A stretch of 64,000 nt of DNA, taken from contig CAMNXF010000002.1 of assembly GCA_946567425.1 (NCBI GenBank), positions 62,001 through 126,000 on the forward strand. Direction: 5' to 3'. Below are positions 6,309-24,893 of this stretch, piece after piece (the stretch's first letter is position 1; the number at the start of each line of letters is the position of its first letter). The position numbers and the translations under genes were made by a program. A model generated the notes under the pieces. The model was not told the origin of the DNA. It saw nothing but the letters and a program-made list of their open reading frames with translations, and did no database searches. This stretch comes from an uncultured Clostridia bacterium. Its GTDB lineage: Bacteria; Bacillota; Clostridia; Oscillospirales; Ruminococcaceae.

Positions 6309-7309
6309 TAACTCTCCTTTTTCGGAACGATCTCAAGCACCGCGCCCTCACGCTCCCGTACCTCTATATTATAGCCGAACGAGGACATTCTGCGGACATT
6401 TTCGCGTTTCTGCCCTATCGTGCGGCTGATGTTTTTCTTATCCGTAAAAATCGTGTAATCGCCTTTCGGAAACGCGTTCAGGCGCTCCGTAAGCTCCGAA
6501 AGCAATATCCTGCTTTCGACTATCTCGCGCAGCGCGGGGTGATAAACGCCGCCGAGCATTTCGCGCTCAACGCCGGGACTTGCGTGCAATCCGAGACGTA
6601 TTACGCGGATGTCGTTTTCCGCGAATTTCTTCAGCAGCTCCGCACATAGATCCACCGTTTCATCAAACGAAAACGACCCGTATCCGCCGCGCTTGAAAAG
6701 CTCCCCGAGACGAGTATTTTTCAGTATCACGGTCGGGTAGACACGCACGGTTTTCGGTGTGAGCTTTATAAACTCGTCAGCCGTTTCAAGACAACGCTCG
6801 GGCGTGTCCATATACAGTCCCGTCATCATCTGCAAGCCTAACTCCATACCGCTTTGCTTTATCAGCACGGCGGCTCTGCGAACGTCCTCGGCGGTATGTC
6901 CGCGTTCGTTCGCAAGAAGAACCTCGTCGTTCATCGACTGCGCGCCAAGCTCGACCGACGTTACGCCGTAACGCCTGAGAATATCGGCGATCTCCCCGTC
7001 AACGCAGTCTGGGCGCGTCGAGCATCGAATTCCCGTATAGCACGGAAACCGCTCCACAGCTGCCATTGCGGTATCAAGGAGCTCCAGCATATAACCTCGC
7101 GGAACAGCCGTAAAGCTGCCGCCGAAAAACGCGATCTCCGCCGCCATTCCGCGCTCCGCGAGATGCTCCGCCTGATCCTCCAGAACGTTCCCGACCTGCT
7201 CCGCGGTCGGCGCGGAAAGCTCTCCCGTAATGCTTCGCTGGTCGCAGAAGCTGCATTTATGAGGACAGCCGATATGCGGGATAAAAAACGAAATATTAGT
7301 CTGTTTCAT
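6308..7309 (-). CDS. Radical SAM protein, Elp3/YhcC-like
   Basis: 333 residues. The radical-SAM cluster motif CxxxCxxC lies near the N-terminus (C15, C19, C22 in GCPHKCSFC), preceded by IPHIGC as in Elp3-like proteins. GGSFTAVP, GIRCSTRPD and SVELGAQS are the usual barrel elements around the SAM site. A 4Fe-4S/SAM-dependent radical reaction is therefore expected. The substrate is unknown; the Elp3-type N-terminus makes tRNA a guess only, and I see no acetyltransferase domain. It sits between rnc and smc, with its start inside the last codons of rnc. Confidence 0.85.
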   Translation of the reverse strand: MKQTNISFFIPHIGCPHKCSFCDQRSITGELSAPTAEQVGNVLEDQAEHLAERGMAAEIAFFGGSFTAVPRGYMLELLDTAMAAVERFPCYTGIRCSTRPDCVDGEIADILRRYGVTSVELGAQSMNDEVLLANERGHTAEDVRRAAVLIKQSGMELGLQMMTGLYMDTPERCLETADEFIKLTPKTVRVYPTVILKNTRLGELFKRGGYGSFSFDETVDLCAELLKKFAENDIRVIRLGLHASPGVEREMLGGVYHPALREIVESRILLSELTERLNAFPKGDYTIFTDKKNISRTIGQKRENVRRMSSFGYNIEVREREGAVLEIVPKKES

Positions 7310-7994
7310 AGCCCATAAGCTTTACAGCTTCCTTTGCGGCGGCTTGCTCGGCCTCCTTTTTGGACTGCCCGCTGCCGCTGCCGATAGTTTGTCCGTTGAG
7401 CAGAACGTCCGCGAAAAACGTTTTGTGGTGTGACTGCTCCTCGTTTTCCGTGACGTTGTAGGAGATGTGTTCTTCCGGGTTCTGCTGGATTATCTCCTGC
7501 AATATCGTCTTGTAGTCGCCGAGCCGCACCTTGCCCGACTTCAGCGCCTCAACGCTCGGCACAAACGACATTATCATTTTCGTTGACTCCTCCGAACCGC
7601 CGTCAAGGTAAACCGCCGCGATAAGCGCCTCAAACGCGTCCGCGAGTATTGAGCGCCTGTCGCGCCCGCCCGTCATTTCCTCTCCCTTGCCTAGATAAAT
7701 GTACTTTCCGAGGTCGATGCGCTTTGCGAAATTGTACAGCGAATTTTCGCAGACGATAGACGCGCGGAGCCTTGTCAGACCGCCCTCGGGAACGGTCGTC
7801 ATATTCGTGAACAGATACTGAGAAACGGTTATCTGCAGCACCGCGTCGCCCAGGAACTCCAAACGCTCGTTGCTTCCGTTGTTTTTTCCGCCAGAATAAC
7901 TGGAATGTGTCAGCGCGCGTTTCAGATAGCTTCGTTCGCTGAACTTGTAGCCGATCTTCTCTTCAAGCTCGTCAAGCGCGCTGATATCAGCCAT
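7296..7994 (-). CDS. rnc: Ribonuclease III
   Basis: Double-strand-specific endonuclease for rRNA and mRNA processing. The signature NERLEFLGDAVL (about 42-53) and the downstream acidic site (ILADAFEALIAAVYLD) form the catalytic domain. A double-stranded-RNA-binding domain fills about 155-230. I use the ATG at 7994 (232 aa) because GGAGG lies 9 nt upstream. A TTG at 8003 would add MRK but abuts the SD. The ATG overlaps the stop of plsX (ATGGCTGA), so the two are coupled. Confidence 0.96.
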   Translation of the reverse strand: MADISALDELEEKIGYKFSERSYLKRALTHSSYSGGKNNGSNERLEFLGDAVLQITVSQYLFTNMTTVPEGGLTRLRASIVCENSLYNFAKRIDLGKYIYLGKGEEMTGGRDRRSILADAFEALIAAVYLDGGSEESTKMIMSFVPSVEALKSGKVRLGDYKTILQEIIQQNPEEHISYNVTENEEQSHHKTFFADVLLNGQTIGSGSGQSKKEAEQAAAKEAVKLMGYETD

Positions 7995-9000
7995 TTTCCG
8001 CAACCTCCTCCAGTGCCGCGACCGCCTTGGTCATTTCCTCGATAGCGTTGTTCTCAACAAACATTTTCGCCTGTCTGAACGCCCCGAAAAACGCCTTTGC
8101 GTCGCTGCTGCCGTGCGCCTTGAAAACGGGCTTTGCCGTGCCGAGCAGCGGCGAGCCGCCTATCTCCTTGTAATCCATTTGCTTGGTAAACTCGGTCAGT
8201 CTCGACTTCACGCACAGCGCGCCGAGCTTGGTAAAGATATTCGCGAAGAACATCGACTTCAGCGCGTCCTTCATAAGTACGCCCATGCCCTCGCAGGCCT
8301 TGAGGAAAACGTTCCCCGTAAATCCGTCCGTTATCAGCACGTCCACCGCACCGAGCGGCACCTCGCGCGCCTCGACGTATCCCACGAAGTTGACGGGCGT
8401 TTTCTCGAGCAGCGCCTTTGTTTCGTGCTCCAGCTCGCGCCCCTTTTCCTCCTCCGTGCCGTTGTTGAGCAAGCCCACGCGCGGATTTTCAACGCCCATG
8501 GTCGTTTTCATGAAGCAGCTGCCGAGTATTGCGAAAAGCCGCAGCATTTCAGGCGTGCAGTTGATGTTCGCGCCGCCGTCCAGCACGCAGAAACGCTTTC
8601 CGCCCGAACACGGCATGAGCGGCACGAGCGCCGCCTTTTTTACGCCGTTTATCCGTTTCGCGTAGGTGCGTCCGCCGACCACGATAGCCGCCGTGCTGCC
8701 CGCCGATATGAACGCGTCCGCTTCTCCGTCCGCGAGCATTTTGAACGCCACGCCCATTGACGTGCCGCTTTTCTGCTTTGCAACCGACATGGGGTTGTCC
8801 TCTGTTGTGATAACGCCCTCTGCGGGAACTAATTCGATACCGTTTTCTGAAATCTTCAGCGCCGCCATACGACTTTTAAGCACATCGACCTCGCCCGTTA
8901 CGGCAACGTCAATCCCCAGCACCTTGACCGCGAGAGCCGCGCCCTTTAAAATTTCGTCGGGAGCGTTATCACCGCCGAAACCGTCTATTACTATTTTCAT
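7987..9000 (-). CDS. plsX: Phosphate acyltransferase PlsX
   Basis: Converts acyl-ACP to acyl-phosphate, the first committed step of PlsX/PlsY phospholipid synthesis at the membrane. 337 residues starting MKIVIDGFGGDNAP, close to the family's DxxGGDxAP opening. FISAGSTAA, SGGKRFCVLDGGAN and TDGFTGNVFLK are other family blocks. SD AAGGAG is 5 nt before the ATG. Its 5' leader carries copy A of the dispersed palindromic element (9020-9130). rnc follows with an overlap. Confidence 0.96.
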   Translation of the reverse strand: MKIVIDGFGGDNAPDEILKGAALAVKVLGIDVAVTGEVDVLKSRMAALKISENGIELVPAEGVITTEDNPMSVAKQKSGTSMGVAFKMLADGEADAFISAGSTAAIVVGGRTYAKRINGVKKAALVPLMPCSGGKRFCVLDGGANINCTPEMLRLFAILGSCFMKTTMGVENPRVGLLNNGTEEEKGRELEHETKALLEKTPVNFVGYVEAREVPLGAVDVLITDGFTGNVFLKACEGMGVLMKDALKSMFFANIFTKLGALCVKSRLTEFTKQMDYKEIGGSPLLGTAKPVFKAHGSSDAKAFFGAFRQAKMFVENNAIEEMTKAVAALEEVAENG

Positions 9001-9019
9001 AATTACTCCTTATTTGAAA

Positions 9020-9130
9020 GGCAAAAACTCGCACCGGACGGCTTCGCCGTCCTAGCCGAGCAGTATTGTCTCCGCTCCGCTCGCTTTGCTCGCTTCTCTG
9101 CGACAATACTGCTCACTTGCGATTTTTGCC
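9020..9130. repeat. Dispersed palindromic element, copy A (upstream of plsX)
   Basis: One of five related intergenic elements. Outer arms GGCAAAAACTCGCA / TTGCGATTTTTGCC pair imperfectly. Inside are a small hairpin (ACGGC/GCCGT) and a perfect 13-bp stem, 9058-9070 with 9102-9114 (GAGCAGTATTGTC / GACAATACTGCTC). It ends 19 nt before the plsX ATG, just upstream of the SD. TTATTTG occurs on both flanks, like a short target duplication. Confidence 0.75.
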
Positions 9131-9197
9131 GCTGCAACATTTATTTGCCGCATTTTTTTGCAGGAACTTTTGCCGCTGCATCTGTTGAAAGAGCGAT

Positions 9198-10517
9198 TTA
9201 TCGCTTCAGAGCCTTATCCAGATCGCCGAGCGCTCTTTCGGCAAGCGCCGCATACTTTCTCTGTTTGCCGTCCTTACCTCGGAATTCCTCGTCAAGCGGC
9301 GGCAGTATTCCCATATTGCTGCCCATAGGCTGAAAATTGCACTCCCAAGCGTGCGCCACATAATCGCTCAGCGCACCGAGCATTGTCGTCCTCGGGAACG
9401 TCAGCGGCTCTTTTCCGTCCAGGATATCCGCGAGCGCTCTGCCCGCCATAATCCCGCTTGCCGCGCTCTCGACGTAGCCCTCGACGCCTGTTATCTGTCC
9501 GCCGAAGAACACGTTCTCTGAGCCTTTGAGCATAAAATGCTCGTCCAGCAGACGCGGACTGTTTAAAAACGTGTTGCGGTGCATAACGCCGTACCGCGCG
9601 AACTCCGCGTTTTGCAGTCCGGGGATAAGCGAAAACACGCGCTTCTGCTCACTAAATCTGAGATTTGTCTGAAATCCCACGATATTATACAGCGTGCCCT
9701 CGGCGTTCTCCCTGCGGAGTTGAACCGCCGCAAACGGACGCGTTCCCGTGCGCGGGTCGGTAAGTCCGACGGGCTTCATACAGCCGTAGCGGACGCTGTC
9801 GTAACCGCGCTTCGCAAGCACCTCAACGGGCATACAGCCCTCGTAAACCTTTAATCCCTTAGCCTCGGACGGCACGTCAAACTCGTGAAGCGGCGCGGTC
9901 TCCGCGTTTACAAGCGCGTTGTAAAATATCTCGTACTCCTCGCGGTTCATCGGGCAGTTGACGTAATCCGCGCCGCCGTGGTCATACCGTGACTGCTCGA
10001 ACGCTATCGAAAAATCAATGCTCTCGGCGGTCACGATAGGCGCCGCCGCGTCGTAAAAGCTGAGATAGTCACCGCAGCGTCCGCGTATTTTGTCTGCTAA
10101 GCCGTCGCTCGTAAGCGGTCCCGTGCAGATTATCGCATTTTTGTCGGGAAATTCCGTGACTTCCACATACCTTACCGTAATTTTGGGGTGAGATCTCACG
10201 ACGCGCGTCACCTCGTCTGAGAATGCTGTTCGGTTCACCGCGAGCGCACCGCCGGCGGGCACGGAAGTTTTTTCGGCAGCCGCGCAGATCACCGAGCCGA
10301 GCCGCCGCATTTCCTCTTTCAGCAGACCGCACGCGCTGTCCGCTCTAGACGATTTCAGCGAATTTGAGCAGACCAGCTCCGCGAAGCCCTCGTATTTATG
10401 CGCGGGTGAATATTTATTCGGCTTCATCTCGTACAGCTCAACCGAAAAACCGCGTTGTGCAAGCTGCATTGCCGCCTCGCAGCCCGCAAGCCCCGCGCCT
10501 ATAACCTTAACCTTCAT
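9198..10517 (-). CDS. trmFO: tRNA (uracil-5-)-methyltransferase TrmFO
   Basis: FAD- and methylene-tetrahydrofolate-dependent enzyme making ribothymidine at tRNA position 54. 439 residues from the ATG at 10517. It opens MKVKVIGAGLAGCEAA (dinucleotide-binding GAGLAG), followed by YEMKPNKYSPAHK and ELVCSNSLKS, diagnostic for TrmFO. The frame stays open further upstream but would only duplicate the end of topA; the ATG overlaps the topA stop (ATGAAGGTTAA). Length matches the family (about 435-440). Confidence 0.96.
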   Translation of the reverse strand: MKVKVIGAGLAGCEAAMQLAQRGFSVELYEMKPNKYSPAHKYEGFAELVCSNSLKSSRADSACGLLKEEMRRLGSVICAAAEKTSVPAGGALAVNRTAFSDEVTRVVRSHPKITVRYVEVTEFPDKNAIICTGPLTSDGLADKIRGRCGDYLSFYDAAAPIVTAESIDFSIAFEQSRYDHGGADYVNCPMNREEYEIFYNALVNAETAPLHEFDVPSEAKGLKVYEGCMPVEVLAKRGYDSVRYGCMKPVGLTDPRTGTRPFAAVQLRRENAEGTLYNIVGFQTNLRFSEQKRVFSLIPGLQNAEFARYGVMHRNTFLNSPRLLDEHFMLKGSENVFFGGQITGVEGYVESAASGIMAGRALADILDGKEPLTFPRTTMLGALSDYVAHAWECNFQPMGSNMGILPPLDEEFRGKDGKQRKYAALAERALGDLDKALKR

Positions 10518-12609
10518 TGTTATCCTTTGCGTTGTCCAAAGGACGCTCGTATCCGCAGCCGTCCTTCTGGCAATATATCTTGCCGAGCCTGCCCGTTTTC
10601 TTGAACAAGCTCGAGCCGCACTGCGGACATTTTTCCTCAAGCGGCATATCCCATGTCATAAAGTTACAGTCCTTGAAATTCTCGCAGCCGTAGAACGGCT
10701 TGCCTTTCTTGGACTTTTTCAGCAGCATTTTCGCGCCGCACTTCGGGCACAAGCCCTTTGTCTCGGTGACTATCTTCTTCGTGAACTTGCACTCGGGGAA
10801 ACCCGAGCACCCGAGGAATTTTCCGTAAGGACCGATCTTGATGACCATATTTTTTCCGCACTGCTCGCAGATAATATCGGTAGGCTCGTCGGGCACCTTC
10901 AGGTGCTTGCCCTCCATGTCCTGCTCCGCTTTTTCGAGCGACTTCGCGAAGCCCTTGTAGAAGCCGTCGAGCGTCTCCACCCAATTCTTCGTGCCCTTTT
11001 CGATGTTGTCAAGGCTGGTCTCCATTTTTGCGGTGAACTTCACGTCAACGATATTGTTGAACTTCTCCTTAAGCAGCCCCGTAATTACTTCGCCAAGCGG
11101 CGTGGGCTTGAGCTGATTGCCGTTTTCGCGCTCAACATAATGCCTGTCGAGGATGGTAGATATCGTCGGCGCGTAGGTGGACGGACGTCCTATCCCGTTC
11201 TCCTCGAGTGCCTTTATCAGCGACGCCTCGTTGTACCTCGCGGGAGGCTGCGTAAAGTGCTGATTGCCGAGAACCTCTTTTGCATTCAGTTTCTCGCCCT
11301 TTTCAATCTTCGGCAGCGCGCCGCCCTGCTCCTCGTTGTCCTTGGACTCCTCGTAAAGCTTAGTAAAACCGTCAAATCTCACGGAATACCCGCTCGACTT
11401 GAACAGATAAGACTTCGCCGAAATATCGACCGATACCGTATCCATGATCGCGTTCGCCATCTGGCTCGCCATAAAGCGCTCCCAGATGAGCCTATACAGC
11501 TTATACTGATCGTTCGTGAGCGATTTTTTCACCTTTGCGGGCGTAAGCTCTACGTTCGCGGGGCGTATAGCCTCGTGAGCGTCCTGCGCGTTGCTCTTCG
11601 ACTTGAACGTCCTCGGCTTTTCGGGAAGATATTCCGCGCCGTATTCGTTCTTGATGACCTCGGCGGCGGCAGTTTTCGCCTCGTCCGAAATACGAAGACT
11701 GTCCGTTCTCATATAGGTGATAAGACCGACAGCGCCCATTCCCTCAACGTCAACACCCTCATACAGTTCCTGCGCGGTTTTCATCGTTCTCCGCGCCTGA
11801 AACGACAGCTTGCGGCTCGCCTCCTGCTGTAACGTCGAGGTCGTAAACGGCGGCGCGGGCTGCTTTTTGCGCTGCGATTTTTTCAGGTTCGTAACGATAA
11901 AATCAGCGTCCTTGAGGTCGTCCAGTATTTTGTCGGCTTGCTCCTTGTTGTCGATCTGCGCCTTTTGCCCGTTTATCTCCGTGAGCTTCGCCGCGAACAG
12001 CTTCTTCGACGATGCCGCCGAGAGCTTCGCGTCAATACTCCAGTATTCTGTGGACTTGAACGCGCGTATTTCCTCCTCGCGGTCGACGATAATCCTCACC
12101 GCAACCGACTGCACGCGCCCCGCCGAAAGCCCTCTGCGCACCTTCTTCCACAAAAACGGCGAGAGCTTATAGCCCACGATCCTGTCAAGGATACGCCGCG
12201 TCTGCTGCGCGTTTACAACGTCCGTGTCGATAGTGCGCGGGTGGCTCATACCGTACTGTACACCCGTTTTTGTTATCTCGTTGAACGTAACGCGGATCTT
12301 CGCCTTTTCGTCGATATTCAGCAAATGCGACAAATGCCACGCGATAGCCTCTCCCTCGCGGTCCGGGTCGGTCGCGAGATAGATAATGTCGCTCTCCTTA
12401 GCGCGCTTTTTCAGCTCCTTGATAACATCCGACTTGTCTTTCATATTAACGTACTGCGGCTCGAAATTATTGTCCACGTCAACACCGAATTTCGACTTCG
12501 GAAGATCGATTATATGTCCCGTGGACGCCATTACTTCATAACCGGCGCCCAGGTATTTTTTAACGGTTTTCGCCTTTGACGGCGACTCGAGAATAACCAG
12601 ATTTGCCAA
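10507..12609 (-). CDS. topA: DNA topoisomerase I (type IA)
   Basis: Relaxes negative supercoils through a 5'-phosphotyrosine intermediate. 700 residues: N-terminal TOPRIM domain (LVILESPSKAKTVKKYLG, then TDPDREGEAIAWHL), the catalytic-Tyr block GLITYMRTDS, and three C-terminal Cys4 zinc ribbons. I choose the TTG at 12609, which has GGAGG 9 nt upstream and begins exactly at the conserved N-terminus. An upstream TTG (12648) would add 13 residues that cover the SD. It is followed directly by trmFO, with an 11-nt overlap. Confidence 0.96.
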   Translation of the reverse strand: MANLVILESPSKAKTVKKYLGAGYEVMASTGHIIDLPKSKFGVDVDNNFEPQYVNMKDKSDVIKELKKRAKESDIIYLATDPDREGEAIAWHLSHLLNIDEKAKIRVTFNEITKTGVQYGMSHPRTIDTDVVNAQQTRRILDRIVGYKLSPFLWKKVRRGLSAGRVQSVAVRIIVDREEEIRAFKSTEYWSIDAKLSAASSKKLFAAKLTEINGQKAQIDNKEQADKILDDLKDADFIVTNLKKSQRKKQPAPPFTTSTLQQEASRKLSFQARRTMKTAQELYEGVDVEGMGAVGLITYMRTDSLRISDEAKTAAAEVIKNEYGAEYLPEKPRTFKSKSNAQDAHEAIRPANVELTPAKVKKSLTNDQYKLYRLIWERFMASQMANAIMDTVSVDISAKSYLFKSSGYSVRFDGFTKLYEESKDNEEQGGALPKIEKGEKLNAKEVLGNQHFTQPPARYNEASLIKALEENGIGRPSTYAPTISTILDRHYVERENGNQLKPTPLGEVITGLLKEKFNNIVDVKFTAKMETSLDNIEKGTKNWVETLDGFYKGFAKSLEKAEQDMEGKHLKVPDEPTDIICEQCGKNMVIKIGPYGKFLGCSGFPECKFTKKIVTETKGLCPKCGAKMLLKKSKKGKPFYGCENFKDCNFMTWDMPLEEKCPQCGSSLFKKTGRLGKIYCQKDGCGYERPLDNAKDNNEG

Positions 12610-12682
12610 AGGTATCTCCTCCAATTTGTATTTTATTTGGTACTGCAAAACCGAAAGTTTTCTTATGGTTTTGAACTGCCAA

Positions 12683-13447
12683 TTATTTTGATAACTCCCA
12701 AAGCAGCACGGACGCAGCTATTGCGGCGTTGAGCGATTCCGCGCCCTTTATGGGAATGTAGATCTTTTCATCGCATACTGCGGCAACCTCGGGCGATATT
12801 CCCCCGCCCTCGCTGCCGATGACTATCGCGGTCTTTTCGGGGAATTTCACCTCGCCGAGCCGTTTTGCGGTATCGTCGAGCATTGCGCTGTACACCGTGA
12901 AACCGTTCAGAACCCCCCGAAGCTCCGCCGCCGCGCAATTTACGAATGGTAGCCGAAACATGCTCCCCATTGACGCCCGAAGCGATTTCGGCGACCAGAC
13001 GTCCGCGCAGCCCGAAAGCAGCACCGCGCCGTCAATTCCGAAAGCCTCTGCCGTGCGTATAACCGTGCCGACATTGCCGGGATCCTGAACTCCGTCCAGA
13101 ACGACAATTCTCCGCGCGTCTTCCGCCAGATCCTCCGCGCGTTTCTCCACGACCGCAAACAACCCCTGAGGCGACTTCGTATCGGATATATATTCGGCTA
13201 ATTCATCGGTTATGCAAATTGACGAATCTGCCGCTTCAATAAGCAGCCCGAATGTTCGCGGATATTTTGCGGCAGCCTTTTGCGTGTACGCGGCGAACGT
13301 CGCTTTCAGCCCCGAGCAGAACAGTTCACCACAGAGATGATCTCCCTCGACCACAAAAACGCCGCGCTCGTCACGCATATTTTTTTCTCTGATTAGACTT
13401 CTGATCATCCGAACGTTCGCGTTCTTTCTCGACGATACTGTCTCCAT
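12683..13447 (-). CDS. TrmH/SpoU-family RNA 2'-O-methyltransferase
   Basis: 254 residues with the N-terminal substrate-binding domain (RMIRSLIREKNMRDERGVFVVEG) and a C-terminal knotted SPOUT methyltransferase. Motifs 1-3 are visible as LDGVQDPGNVGTVIRTAEAFG, IVIGSEGGGIS and SLNAAIAASVLLWEL. Family members methylate ribose 2'-OH in 23S rRNA or tRNA; which base is modified cannot be told here (RlmB-like is plausible). Such genes often lie near pheST and infC-rplT in Bacillota. It follows the rplT terminator, so it is probably a separate transcript. Confidence 0.9.
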   Translation of the reverse strand: METVSSRKNANVRMIRSLIREKNMRDERGVFVVEGDHLCGELFCSGLKATFAAYTQKAAAKYPRTFGLLIEAADSSICITDELAEYISDTKSPQGLFAVVEKRAEDLAEDARRIVVLDGVQDPGNVGTVIRTAEAFGIDGAVLLSGCADVWSPKSLRASMGSMFRLPFVNCAAAELRGVLNGFTVYSAMLDDTAKRLGEVKFPEKTAIVIGSEGGGISPEVAAVCDEKIYIPIKGAESLNAAIAASVLLWELSK

Positions 13448-21440: not shown

Positions 21441-21552
21441 GGCAAAAGCTCGCACCGGGCGGCTTTCGCCGCCCTAGCCGAGCAGCATTGTCTCCGCTCC
21501 GCTCGCTTTGCTCGCTGCACTGCGGCAATACTGCTCGCTTGCGACTTTTGCC
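21441..21552. repeat. Dispersed palindromic element, copy B (upstream of pheS)
   Basis: Closely matches copy A over its whole length: outer arms GGCAAAAGCTCGCA / TTGCGACTTTTGCC, a GGGCGGC...GCCGCCC mini-hairpin and the inner stem GAGCAGCATTGTC / GGCAATACTGCTC. It lies between the T-box terminator and the pheS SD, ending about 11 nt before the GGAGG. Confidence 0.75.
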
Positions 21553-21642
21553 GCTACGTATTTTGTTTGTTGCTCTTGGCTGTTATTTTAAAGTGCACCT
21601 TTAAAATGCTGACGATTTGCTGTTATTTTTGTGTTCCCGCAA

Positions 21643-21888
21643 ACAAAAAATCCCAAAGTCTAACGACTTCGGGACGGAATTTATCCGCGGTACCACCCAA
21701 ATTCGGAGCAAGCGCTCCGCTCTTTTAAACCTTAACGCAGTAAATACGGCTCTGTTTAGTTTCTCACAAGCAACTCCCATGCTGAAATTCGCGTTCCGAC
21801 CGACAGAGCGCTTTCAGCCCATAGACGCTCATTCTCTGAGATCGGTTTCCCGAAACGTTACTTACACATATTCACAGTCATTATTAAA
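21643..21888 (-). promoter_or_regulatory. T-box leader, tRNA-Phe responsive
   Basis: The minus-strand leader contains the T-box core GGGTGGTACCGCG (+ strand 21686-21698). A terminator follows: stem TCCCGAAGTC/GACTTTGGGA (21665-21674 with 21651-21660) and TTTTTT. The specifier-side sequence CGCGAATTTCAGC offers UUC (Phe) followed by A, consistent with pheS downstream. Uncharged tRNA-Phe should favour the antiterminator. Confidence 0.93.
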
Positions 21889-21917
21889 ATTATACCACGA
21901 TTTAATGTTATTGTCAA
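21889..21917 (-). promoter_or_regulatory. Sigma-A promoter for pheST
   Basis: TTGACA (21912-21917, minus), 17-nt spacer, TATAAT (21889-21894). It is divergent from, and about 20 bp from, the recombinase -10. Confidence 0.88.
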
Positions 21918-21935
21918 GTGGTAATTTGGAAATCT

Positions 21936-21966
21936 GCTATAATTTTTATGCTCTTTAATTAAGAGC
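21936..21966 (+). promoter_or_regulatory. Extended -10 promoter and leader hairpin for the recombinase
   Basis: TGCTATAAT (21935-21943) is an extended -10 element; no good -35 lies at 16-18 nt. A small hairpin GCTCTT/AAGAGC (21950-21955 with 21961-21966) follows, then GGAGG before the ATG at 21996. This suggests modest expression. Confidence 0.5.
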
Positions 21967-21995
21967 AAAAATTAAAACATCGGAGGATAATCATA

Positions 21996-22838
21996 ATGTC
22001 GACCACCATAACCACACGCAGCATAGAGCGCTTTGCCGCTTTGCTGACCGCCACCGAACACCGCCCCTGCACCGTAAGGAAATACTCCCGCGACGTGCTT
22101 CGGCTGCTCGATTACGCGGGCGGCTCGCCGCTCACCAAAGAGACGCTTATTGGGTTTAAGTCCGAGCTTTCCCTAAACCTCTCCCCCGCGAGCGTCAACA
22201 CCGTCATCGCCGCAGTAAACAGCTACCTCGATTTCGTTCAGAACCCTGCATTAAAGCTGAAAAGCGTGAAAATACAGCAGTCTCACAGCGGAGAACGCGA
22301 ACTCACCCTCAACGAATACCACCGTCTTATCGAGACCGCTGACGCACTCGGCGACAGGCAGACCTCGCTGATTATGCAGACGATCTGCTCAACGGGAATA
22401 CGCGTCTCTGAACTGCCGTTCATAACCGCCGAAGCCGTCCGCGCGGGCAGCGCTTGGGTATCATGCAAGGGAAAATGCCGCACAGTTTACCTCCCCGAAA
22501 AGCTCCGTGCAAGGCTTATACCCTACATAAGCGCTCTCGGAATAACCACAGGCGCGGTGTTTGTGACGAAAAACAACAAGCCCCTCGACCGCTCCAACAT
22601 CTACAAAAGTATGCAGAAGCTCGGCATGGCGGCGGGGATAGCGCCCGAGAAACTTTTTCCGCATAATCTGCGGCACTTGTTCGCGCGAACTTACTATTCC
22701 GCGCAAAAGGACATCGTGCGGCTCGCGGACATTCTCGGACACTCCAACCTCGCGACCACTCGCATTTATATCCGCGAGGACAAGGAGACCTGTGCCGAAC
22801 AGATAAACGCCCTTGATCTGGTGCTCGGCACGGAATAA
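21996..22838 (+). CDS. Tyrosine recombinase (Xer/integrase family), probable DNA invertase
   Basis: 280 residues with a SAM-like N-terminal core-binding domain (about 5-85) and a catalytic domain (about 100-270). All signature residues are present: R136 in STGIRVSEL, a lysine near 158-160 (CKGK), H223-x-x-R226 in PHNLRHLFA, H249 in LGHSN and nucleophile Y258 in TTRIYIR. Unlike a phage integrase it has no long arm-binding N-terminus. It stands alone, with no dif site recognised, immediately upstream of two inverted crossover-like sites (22872-22894, 23040-23062). I infer that it inverts the promoter segment between them. SD GGAGG is present. Confidence 0.9.
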   Translation: MSTTITTRSIERFAALLTATEHRPCTVRKYSRDVLRLLDYAGGSPLTKETLIGFKSELSLNLSPASVNTVIAAVNSYLDFVQNPALKLKSVKIQQSHSGERELTLNEYHRLIETADALGDRQTSLIMQTICSTGIRVSELPFITAEAVRAGSAWVSCKGKCRTVYLPEKLRARLIPYISALGITTGAVFVTKNNKPLDRSNIYKSMQKLGMAAGIAPEKLFPHNLRHLFARTYYSAQKDIVRLADILGHSNLATTRIYIREDKETCAEQINALDLVLGTE

Positions 22839-22841
22839 ATT

Positions 22842-22866
22842 CAGCCCCTCCGTCGCAGAGGGGCTG
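22842..22866. terminator. Hairpin between the recombinase and the invertible segment
   Basis: Perfect 9-bp stem CAGCCCCTC/GAGGGGCTG (22842-22850 with 22858-22866). It follows the recombinase stop by 3 nt. On the minus strand it is followed by AATTTATT, so it could also stop transcripts leaving the invertible promoter in its present orientation before they run antisense into the recombinase. Confidence 0.65.
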
Positions 22867-22871
22867 TAAAG

Positions 22872-23062
22872 CAACATAATAACCATTATGTTGTAAAAGT
22901 TATGATAGTTTTTGTTCTTGAATGTATTTTATCACAGCTTTAACAATTTGTCAATAGTTTTTTTGAAAAATTTTGTATAAATTTAACACTGGCGTTTTGT
23001 GCAAAATACTCTGTTTTGTGATTTTACCGCCTTTATTTCACAACATAATGGTTATTATGTTG
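22872..23062. other. Putative invertible promoter element (phase switch)
   Basis: A perfect 23-bp inverted repeat (22872-22894 and 23040-23062) flanks 145 bp. Each copy is internally symmetric: CAACATAAT / ATTATGTTG arms around an asymmetric AACC centre (22881-22884), which reads GGTT (23050-23053) in the other copy. Opposed sites with an asymmetric core are what a tyrosine recombinase needs for inversion rather than excision. The segment is very AT-rich and contains a promoter pointing left, away from the prepilin gene. Confidence 0.8.
22926..22954 (-). promoter_or_regulatory. Promoter inside the invertible segment, currently pointing away from the pilin
   Basis: Minus-strand TTGACA (22949-22954), 17-nt spacer, TAAAAT (22926-22931). 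I found no comparable promoter on the plus strand between 22895 and 23189. Inversion would aim this promoter at the prepilin gene, with a start about 35-40 nt before the crossover site. Confidence 0.8.
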
Positions 23063-23176
23063 TAAGCCCGCGGCAAACCGTGCTGCAATGCGGTTTTACT
23101 TACGAATATAGCCCCGTCGGGGTTATAGAATAATCCGCTCCGAAATCCCTCGGACGGGTAATAAAATTTTTTTACA
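23062..23176 (+). promoter_or_regulatory. Structured leader between the switch and the prepilin gene
   Basis: Three potential hairpins in tandem: GTAAG/CTTAC (23062-23066 with 23099-23103) enclosing AAACCG/CGGTTT (23075-23080 with 23091-23096); ATAGCCCC/GGGGTTAT (23108-23126); and CCGCTCCGA/TCGGACGG (23135-23157). A run of T (23165-23172) and then AGGAGG follow. It could stabilise the mRNA or act as an attenuator. No known riboswitch class matched by eye. Confidence 0.5.
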
Positions 23177-23189
23177 GGAGGTCTTTACT

Positions 23190-23768
23190 ATGATAAAGAA
23201 ACTTCAGGCTCTTAGAGCCAAAAAGGGCTTTACGCTTGTTGAGTTGATCGTTGTTATCGCGATCATCGGCGTACTTGCCGCTATCCTCGTTCCCACCATG
23301 ATGGGCATGGTAACCAAGTCCAGAGTTACCTCTGTTGACTCCACAGCAAAGTCTCTCGCAGACACCGTTGTTACATGGATGTCTGAAGTTGAGGCAAACG
23401 GCGGCAAGATCCCGGGTGGTGCCGGCACAGTTTATACGATTACAATTTCTAATACCGGCGCAACGAACTCCGATTTCGACGCAGCTGACGTTGCAAAGCT
23501 GACGCAGAGAATCACAGATGATTACAGCCTCACTGCTAACTCTCACGGTACAGTTTATATTAAGGACAGAAAAGTTCTTGGCGCGGTTTATTATGATTCG
23601 GCAAGTGCTTCGACTGCTGCGCCTAGCAATACTGATTTCGACGCCAAAACTTTTGCGTGGGACGGTAAAACCGACGGTTTGACTACTGACGGCATTATCT
23701 GCGGCACATCTCCTAAACTCAAAATGGCTGGTGGCGCTTCTTCTACTACCACTACCAGTACACCCTGA
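23190..23768 (+). CDS. Type IV prepilin-like surface protein
   Basis: 192 residues with a class III (prepilin) leader: basic MIKKLQALRAKKG, cleavage after G13, F14 as +1, E18 as +5, then the hydrophobic helix LIVVIAIIGVLAAILVP. The rest is a Ser/Thr/Ala-rich globular domain ending GGASSTTTTSTP. A prepilin peptidase and assembly ATPase would be needed; none is in the window. SD GGAGG is 8 nt before the ATG. Its only apparent promoter lies in the invertible element and faces away. It may be a major pilin or a pseudopilin; the Thr-rich tail suggests surface exposure. Confidence 0.88.
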   Translation: MIKKLQALRAKKGFTLVELIVVIAIIGVLAAILVPTMMGMVTKSRVTSVDSTAKSLADTVVTWMSEVEANGGKIPGGAGTVYTITISNTGATNSDFDAADVAKLTQRITDDYSLTANSHGTVYIKDRKVLGAVYYDSASASTAAPSNTDFDAKTFAWDGKTDGLTTDGIICGTSPKLKMAGGASSTTTTSTP

Positions 23769-23805
23769 TGAGAAGAACAGTTGTTGATTAAAGAGGTGCA
23801 TTACA

Positions 23806-24021
23806 ATGCAAAAGAAAAGACACAAGTTCAGCTTTAAGCGCTTGAAGTCAAAGGCTGCTCTTATCGGGCACGACGCGATTGAATGCATCAAGGAATACCC
23901 CACCGTAAAAAGAGAAACGCCCACATCTATCGTGGACATAATCTCAATGGTTTGCGCGTTAGGTATAAGCGTCATAACGATAATCTGCGTATTATCCGCT
24001 GACGTAAGACCATGGCCTTAA
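23806..24021 (+). CDS. Small single-pass membrane protein downstream of the prepilin
   Basis: Not recognised. 71 residues: very basic N-terminus (MQKKRHKFSFKRLKSK), then one hydrophobic segment (about 43-63, IVDIISMVCALGISVITIICVL) and a short tail. GAGGTG precedes the ATG. It lies 37 nt after the prepilin and shares its terminator, so it should be switched with it. An accessory role in pilin export or anchoring is conceivable but unproven. Confidence 0.7.
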   Translation: MQKKRHKFSFKRLKSKAALIGHDAIECIKEYPTVKRETPTSIVDIISMVCALGISVITIICVLSADVRPWP

Positions 24022-24026
24022 AAATC

Positions 24027-24060
24027 GAGAGCCTGCGGTTTAGCAGGCTCTCTTTTTATT
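24027..24060 (+). terminator. Terminator of the prepilin unit
   Basis: Perfect 10-bp stem GAGAGCCTGC/GCAGGCTCTC (24027-24036 with 24043-24052) with a 6-nt loop and TTTTTATT. It separates the pilin unit from the convergent purine phosphorylase gene. Confidence 0.93.
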
Positions 24061-24893
24061 TATTTCGCCGCGTGAATATCGGCGATAGCGCGCGTTACCA
24101 GCTTTCGGAACAGCGGAGCGACGCGGTCCGCCGTCTCCTGTACTTCCTTGTGCGACAGCGGGTTCGCCGAAATGCCCGACGCGAGATTTGAGATACACGA
24201 AATACCGCAGACCTCCATTCCGCAATGCCGTGCCGCCATTGCCTCAACGGCGGTGGACATTCCCACGGCGTCCGCGCCGAGCCGCCCGTAAGCGCGTATC
24301 TCGGCGGGCGTTTCATAGTTCGGACCGGTGGTCTGGATATACACGCCGCGTTGGAGCGGAACGCCCTCGGCAGCCGCAGAATTTTCGATTATCGTGCGCA
24401 GACGGCGGCTGTACACCTCGCTCATATCGGGAAAACGCGTTCCCAGCTCGTCGATATTCGCGCCGATAAGCGGCGACGGAACGAGCGAGCATATATGGTC
24501 GCATATCAGCATAAAATCGCCCGCGCGGAACGACGGATTGATACCCCCCGCCGCGTTCGTGAGAAAGAGCGTTTTCGCGCCCATAAGGTGCATAAGGCGC
24601 GTAGGCAGCACGACGTCCTGTACGGAATAGCCCTCGTAATAGTGCACTCTGCCCTGCATTGCGACGATCGGCACGCCGCCCGAATACCCGAACACAAACT
24701 GCCCCTTATGCCCTGCGACGGTGCTTTTCGGAAAGCCCTCGATCTCGCTGTACGGCAGCGTTTCCTTAACGTCCATGGTGTCGCAGAAATCGCCCAGTCC
24801 GCTGCCCAGGATAAGCGCCAGCTCGGGCTTGAATGTGATTTTCTCCGTGACCGCTTCGCGGCATTTTTTCAGTTTTTCGTAAACCTCGTTCAT
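24060..24893 (-). CDS. Purine nucleoside phosphorylase
   Basis: Phosphorolysis of (deoxy)inosine and guanosine to base plus ribose-1-phosphate in purine salvage. 277 residues of the trimeric PNP/MTAP type: GSGLGDF phosphate loop, GHKGQFVFG, VHYYEGY, TNAAGGIN, TTGPNYETPAEIRA, VGMSTAVEA and CISNLASG. The ATG at 24893 has GGAGG 8 nt upstream; a TTG five codons earlier overlaps the SD. It follows the Tam-like gene by 15 nt. Confidence 0.95.
   Translation of the reverse strand: MNEVYEKLKKCREAVTEKITFKPELALILGSGLGDFCDTMDVKETLPYSEIEGFPKSTVAGHKGQFVFGYSGGVPIVAMQGRVHYYEGYSVQDVVLPTRLMHLMGAKTLFLTNAAGGINPSFRAGDFMLICDHICSLVPSPLIGANIDELGTRFPDMSEVYSRRLRTIIENSAAAEGVPLQRGVYIQTTGPNYETPAEIRAYGRLGADAVGMSTAVEAMAARHCGMEVCGISCISNLASGISANPLSHKEVQETADRVAPLFRKLVTRAIADIHAAK

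Follow-up and report, generated by a model that had tools for sequence, protein, structure and literature searches.

Phase variation of fimbriae is classic in Proteobacteria. In the fimS / FimB-FimE system of Escherichia coli, a tyrosine recombinase inverts a promoter located before the type 1 fimbrial subunit gene. In Clostridioides difficile, one recombinase, RecV, acts at several distant sites, and the dif site of XerC/XerD is built of two arms and a short centre. Here we examine a locus that resembles each of these systems in part. It lies in a stretch of 64,000 nucleotides (the window) taken from contig CAMNXF010000002.1 (positions 62,001 to 126,000) of an uncultured Clostridia bacterium of the Ruminococcaceae, and comprises the gene of an XerC-like tyrosine recombinase, an inverted repeat enclosing a promoter-like site, and a type IV prepilin gene. 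It is very likely that the locus is a recombinase-operated invertible promoter and that the prepilin is a phase-variable alternative pilin.

The likeness to fimS lies in the combination of a tyrosine recombinase with promoter inversion ahead of a pilus subunit gene; the window differs in having a single XerC-like recombinase, self-palindromic 23-base sites, and a type IV pilin instead of a chaperone-usher fimbria. The RecV system likewise places invertible regulatory DNA of a Clostridia species under a recombinase, whereas each module of the window family has its own adjacent recombinase and its own site centre. XerC and XerD are among the closest profiles and structures, and their two-armed sites with a short centre are comparable; however, the window has opposed sites beside a gene instead of one dif site, and the curated cut-offs are missed by far (XerC 91.7 of 335.15 bits, XerD 84.9 of 329.6 bits, these Xer types being the nearest curated profiles). 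The nearest solved structures are 4a8e (XerC-like), XerA 5hxy and XerD 1a0p. Matches to the short tyrosine-type DNA invertase models of NCBIfam are weak (PRK09871, 24.1 of 222 bits; PRK09870, 22.9 of 221); we take both to be Fim-like invertase models.

The closest description in print is that of inverton group 139 and invertase group 35, with 33 invertible segments, 32 of them from Clostridia; group 139 is linked to a tyrosine-type recombinase, and shifts of orientation are reported from cultures for invertons of Clostridium sp. D5 and Intestinimonas butyriciproducens (PMC11892184, Microbiome 2025). The window matches this description in its adjacent tyrosine-type recombinase (within 5 kb) and its Clostridia host, and by description, repeat motif aside, its switch likely belongs to the same class. 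It adds a type IV prepilin target, and the word 'pilin' is absent from the main text of PMC11892184. An earlier reading of the letters alone, the first-pass annotation, had known of no described switch pairing such a recombinase with a prepilin. This stands for the prepilin target, which our searches of open-access literature did not find, and falls for the switch kind, since recombinase-linked Clostridia invertons are described in PMC11892184. In the same searches, no promoter switch for a Clostridia type IV pilin or for an extracellular contractile injection system (eCIS) was found, and the consulted part of PMC10598620 mentions no promoter switch. What may be new here is therefore a type IV pilin as the target of a known kind of switch; the injection-system switches discussed below may perhaps be the more surprising.

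The anatomy of the locus is directly observed. The recombinase gene (21996..22838, plus strand) is an intact frame of 280 amino acids with the phage integrase and SAM-like domains (PF00589, E 2.7e-24; PF02899). Residues R136, K160, H223, R226, H249 and Y258, conserved in an 11-member alignment, are presumably the catalytic ones. The gene ends 33 bases before the left copy (22872..22894, plus strand, centre AACC) of a perfect 23-bp inverted repeat, CAACATAATAACCATTATGTTGT, whose right copy (23040..23062, minus strand, centre GGTT) follows after 145 bases; this intervening stretch (22895..23039) is the putative invertible segment, its inversion being predicted from the recombinase family. Repeat and site analysis agree on both copies as candidate crossover sites. 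The window contains two copies of the 22-base site, where 100 shuffles gave an expectation of 0.00, and no further copy with up to 3 mismatches was found in the organism's own 2.9-Mb assembly, which is about 92% complete.

Inside the segment, the minus strand carries TTGACA-17-TAAAAT (22926..22954, read from 22954 to 22926), a promoter-like site with 11 of 12 consensus matches and a TG ahead of the second hexamer. Because it is directed away from the prepilin, the latter is predicted to be OFF in the assembly. The sole rightward candidate (22983-23010, 9 of 12 matches) also lies inside the segment and is at chance level, since the stretch 22780-23200 has two promoter-like sites where shuffling predicts 1.2. 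Between the left site and the recombinase gene, a terminator-like hairpin of 11 pairs (22842..22866, minus strand, a consensus match) stands in the path of a leftward transcript, ahead of the recombinase; terminator-like sites number two in the scanned stretch against 0.4 expected. The prepilin leader (23063..23189, plus strand) contains a 9-pair hairpin (23107-23127) and a GGAGG (23177-23181), and the consensus scan found no promoter-like site in it. It is followed by the type IV prepilin gene (23190..23768, plus strand; 192 amino acids), with an N-terminal KGFTLVEL motif and matches to PF07963 (34.3 bits, cut-off 21.2) and TIGR02532 (34.4 bits, cut-off 16.3). Next comes a protein of 71 amino acids (23806..24021, plus strand) with one hydrophobic stretch seen by eye, regarded as the prepilin's partner from neighbourhood conservation, and then an inverted repeat from the repeat scan with a terminal T run read off the sequence (24022..24057, plus strand), which is likely the terminator of the pilin cassette. 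The first-pass annotation had described a complete tyrosine recombinase, a perfect 23-bp repeat with AACC / GGTT centres around 145 bp, a minus-strand promoter within it, and a prepilin lacking a rightward promoter of its own; all of these are present where it had placed them, and the fixed leader promoter that it had named as a possible refutation does not appear in our scan.

Relatives of the recombinase were used to ask how general this design is. Homologues were found in 10 of 43 genomes of the genus and in 72 of 297 sampled genomes of the family (own genome included in both counts), the best relatives in the genus being 55% identical. Among named genomes, an alignment query confirmed at least 590 of 596 pattern stretches as relatives, mostly titled as Clostridia groups; a single-protein query gave 44 pattern stretches of which none was confirmed, where the alignment query did find relatives. 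Viral contigs carry relatives too, as do 20 plasmid records, where identity is always below 60%. The 133 loci examined comprised the window, 10 from the genus, the best 80 from named genomes, 29 from the family sample and the best 13 of 80 viral ones. Of 14 places in the genus, three were excluded from the site analysis (L010 and L012, weak; L016, a truncated second recombinase), and L139 is a repeat of L019.

At least 350 bases downstream of the recombinase were available in 112 of the 133 loci. Site pairs were picked on arm score alone against ACATAATNNNNATTATGT, the centre being ignored, and were found in 103 of these 112 loci, as well as in L074 (323 bases). In the resulting 104 pairs, the distance between the end of the recombinase match and the start of the left site ranges from -3 to 95 bases (median 17.5); between the two 18-mers, the median distance is 233.5 bases. 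The centres covary, and this too is directly observed: reverse-complementing the right centre gives the left one in full, four bases of four, in 103 of the 104 loci, and three bases of four in the remaining one, against 1.8% full matches for partners taken from different loci. There are 61 different left centres, and none is palindromic. With near-duplicates removed, 99 of 100 centres match and palindromic centres number 0 against 4.9 expected (P(0) 0.007). Such inverted matching of non-palindromic centres is as expected of conservative recombination between opposed sites, which requires and maintains it. In the exception, L026, the recombinase is split over two frames, possibly by an assembly error. 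The AACC centre of the window occurs in no other of the 104 pairs, and the second module of the own genome (L019) has the centre CCCG; with different centres in one genome, several modules could flip independently in one cell. The shared four-base centre offers a simple means to recognise the site pair of each recombinase.

The arm template yielded no pair in nine loci (L025, L067, L072, L080, L084, L124, L120, L155 and L179). A search for inverted repeats, which covered all of these except L155 and L179, found repeats with other arms at L025, L067, L072, L080, L084 and L124 and none at L120. The recombinase sub-group of L067, L072, L080 and L084 has arms like CCACGGAAT..ATTCCGTGG instead of ACATAAT..ATTATGT, and could help to map the specificity of the recombinases. 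A third site with the same centre was seen in 12 of the 104 switches (L060, L066, L076, L077, L088, L096, L099, L104, L123, L127, L150 and L170), 33 to 187 bases from one member of the pair, to which it is directly oriented in 11 of the 12, the exception being L123.

Promoter direction was called by consensus score with a threshold of 9 of 12, which was reached in 91 of the 104 segments and in 304 of 1040 single-base shuffles. As assembled, the promoter is OFF in 70 loci, ON in 12 and unclear in 22; without near-duplicates the numbers are 67, 12 and 21 (67 vs 12, P 2e-10). L025, with its other site arms, is an additional ON case. Opposite orientations of one orthologous segment are observed directly in L152 and L153, which have the same gene order and are 88.5% identical in the recombinase, 88.1% upstream and 87.7% downstream. 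Their segments are 72% identical when one is flipped and 47% when it is not, and the same promoter hexamers stand on opposite strands. L152 is identical in recombinase and segment to L093, from Fournierella massiliensis, and L153 comes from a genome of the same family. Both directions are also found among more distant homologous segments with unlike downstream DNA. The promoter stretch of the window aligns in reverse to L159 (82% over 45 bases) and in the same direction to L090 (80% over 46). A contig end falls within 350 bases of the recombinase match on its downstream side in 16 of 115 loci and on its upstream side in 4 of 115 (one-sided P 0.006); for 250 bases the numbers are 14 and 4 (P 0.015), in a count that left out the window, the viral loci and five duplicates; this excess is consistent with what mixed orientations could cause. 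The first-pass proposal of a phase switch is thus strengthened by the 103 of 112 related loci that have a site pair of the same design, most often enclosing a promoter-like site, and by one reversed orthologous pair. The comparison with related genomes that it had suggested gave that flipped pair, and none for the window locus itself.

Altogether, these findings lead to a model in which the recombinase would bind the palindromic arms (CAACATAAT / ATTATGTTG) of each site and exchange strands in the asymmetric centre (AACC / GGTT), so that the 145-bp segment between the opposed sites would invert. Judging from the sequence, the neighbouring recombinase very probably flips the promoter segment, and the strain from which the window derives would be expected to carry out this inversion at its two sites. 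In the orientation found, the promoter would fire to the left, its transcript would meet the terminator-like hairpin ahead of the recombinase, and the prepilin would be OFF. Inversion would move the hexamers to 22980-22985 and 23003-23008, and transcription would then proceed across the right site and the leader into the prepilin and its 71-residue partner. The product would be an alternative pilin that duplicates the pilin type of the pilus cluster; it would presumably be incorporated into pili, and its supply to the shared pilus machinery would be phase-variable.

The first-pass annotation had called the prepilin a lone one, and this did not hold. The pilin paralogues are directly observed: contig C1 of the own genome (G000:C1) carries a type IV pilus cluster, with frames recognised by eye as PilD, PilB and PilT beside pilins, and the pilin of this cluster is 80% identical to the window prepilin over the first 95 residues. 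Contig C7 (L250, G000:C7, about 6827-8070) carries a second cassette of a prepilin and a 71-residue protein, the partner being 82% identical. Given the close paralogue on C1 and the sister cassette on C7, the window prepilin is better seen as an alternative pilin. By eye, the C7 cassette stands behind a fixed TTGACA-17-TATAAT; ACTACATAAAAGTAGT-like repeats and a divergent gene for an Xre-type regulator are close by. In DNA, the window prepilin resembles its C1 and C7 paralogues only from about 23100-23102 onwards, a point beyond the right site; the window copy therefore has a switch where the C7 copy has a promoter. The 71-residue protein has no Pfam or NCBIfam match. Of its 9 places, 8 have a prepilin as neighbour (8 of 43 genus genomes), and the remaining copy begins at base 137 of the contig that carries it.

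The leader hairpin (TATAGCCCCG..CGGGGTTATA, 23107-23127) recurs, by eye, in 32 of 46 pilin leaders (L029-L058, L249, L250 and others were surveyed), at a distance of about 50-85 bases upstream of the start codon. Among 15 variants selected by hand, both sides are changed in 7 of the 9 pairs, a result biased to pairing as paired forms were picked. Rfam has no match at this hairpin in the window; its scan of 21500-24100 gave nothing but the T-box of the neighbouring pheS.

Several observations weigh against an active switch at the window. No flipped allele of the locus was seen, an exact 30-base stretch of the segment having 0 matches in the viral contigs, and no flip within a species was found, the near-identical L108, L118 and L119, like L172 and L173, each holding one orientation. 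The pair L158 and L166, with conserved flanks, also kept one orientation, and the four injection-system switches (L020-L023) are all OFF. Promoter and terminator calls are consensus matches; direction is unclear in 22 of the 104 segments, and 29% of shuffles reach the threshold. Contig breaks may have other causes, such as local repeats, and the 71-residue partner is without known function. The single orientation at the window would suit a frozen former switch, in which repeat and recombinase are intact by recent descent, inversion no longer occurs and the prepilin is silent; L026, with its split frame and mismatched centre, demonstrates that loci of this appearance exist. However, the window recombinase is full length with all its catalytic residues, the two sites agree in all 23 bases, and their centre is unique among the 104 pairs, which points to maintenance by recombination, so that a frozen state appears unlikely. 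An active switch might also matter little for pili if the prepilin were transcribed from elsewhere as well, through the weak rightward 9/12 site inside the segment or, in principle, by read-through from the recombinase gene. That site is no better than chance predicts, inversion would point it away from the prepilin, and the leader has no promoter-like site; we regard such bypassing of the switch as improbable.

Two further explanations give the sites a main role other than promoter switching. Each site is near-palindromic, as operators often are, and lies near a promoter, which would fit operators of a DNA-binding regulator or, alternatively, bidirectional terminators, without any recombination. 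Operators need no inverted asymmetric centre, yet 103 of 104 loci have one, through 61 different centres, and the segment of L152 and L153 is reversed between conserved flanks; this explanation is accordingly very improbable. In the other, the locus would be mainly a small mobile module, an integrase with attachment sites whose effect on gene control is incidental. The patchy presence of the recombinase beside pheS (2 of 30 fetched loci), the occurrence of switches ahead of many unrelated genes and the relatives in viral contigs and plasmid records speak for mobility. Yet the sites lie downstream of the recombinase around a promoter-like site and do not flank it, so recombination between them cannot excise the recombinase; moreover, the promoter score of 9 is reached far more often in the segments than in shuffles, as given above, and a rightward frame of at least 90 amino acids starts within 700 bases of the right site in 95 of the 104 loci by a mechanical count. 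Mobility as the main function is thus quite unlikely, and an invertible promoter acting on the prepilin remains the preferred reading.

With respect to its genomic placement, the module sits between pheS, with its T-box leader, and, by eye, a purine nucleoside phosphorylase gene. The T-box lies at 21667-21884 on the minus strand (Rfam RF00230, 98.5 bits). A pheS match was found in 37 of 43 genomes of the genus, and 30 loci were fetched with up to 1.5 kb on either side. Because only the own genome and G028 have the recombinase there, it being absent from the flank in the other 28, the module was probably gained next to pheS in these two genomes. In G028, the recombinase adjoins pheS as in the window and the contig ends inside the switch. 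A prepilin contig of the same genome (C172) was considered as the continuation of its switch and could not be linked to it: a mutS2-like gene (by eye), which is not the window's neighbour, follows the 71-residue homologue.

The arrangement recurs once more in the genus. In G026 (L018), a recombinase is followed by a 26-bp repeat around 236 bases with the centre GTTG, a promoter in the OFF direction and a prepilin. This prepilin is cut by the contig end, is 79% identical to that of the window over the first 56 residues and lies without the leader hairpin; the upstream gene is not pheS. Prepilin switches are nevertheless not common, as a prepilin motif within 2.5 kb after the switch is found at 2 of 104 loci (the window and L018), some loci having less DNA than this. 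An eCIS-type motif within 6 kb is found at 4 of 104, with the same limit on available DNA. These are L020-L023, from four genomes of the genus, in which a GTCG-centred switch with its promoter OFF lies ahead of a contractile injection operon. According to Pfam, the L020 operon (9004-13369) encodes an AAA ATPase, an eCIS core protein and a Pvc16-type protein; L021, L022 and L023 have the same motif and resemble L020 by eye. It is possible that these four loci represent phase-variable eCIS.

Other targets are diverse, the downstream genes of related loci being given here for a part of them. The L019 switch precedes UDP-galactopyranose mutase. In G036 (L025:9885-11622), the switch, in its ON state, is directed at a second recombinase gene without the C-terminal catalytic part, whose product might be a regulator, with NeuB and a cytidylyltransferase further downstream. 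For a target census, the first long rightward frame was chosen mechanically, which gave one for 95 of the 104 loci; 93 were scanned, omitting L172 and L173, two copies of one viral locus. Among the 25 commonest of 117 Pfam families, it includes GGDEF (7), Listeria-Bacteroides repeat (5), collagen-like (4), SPFH (4), response regulator (4), TetR (4), BspA-type repeat (3) and SLH (2). The switch family is widespread, and relatives of the window switch lie ahead of many other surface, signalling and secretion genes.

More tentatively, as a proposal that we hold to be plausible and somewhat short of an even chance, this would be a family of self-contained switches, each with a recombinase, a non-palindromic site pair of its own and a promoter, mostly OFF, which in this genus has come to lie ahead of type IV pilin genes on at least two occasions and also ahead of a contractile injection operon, so that clone-mates would differ in their pilins and injection particles. 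If the injection-system switches are real, they would provide eCIS research with a heritable ON/OFF control to measure. If the pilin switch is true, subunit exchange in a Clostridia pilus would be readable from metagenomes as the ratio of the two orientations.

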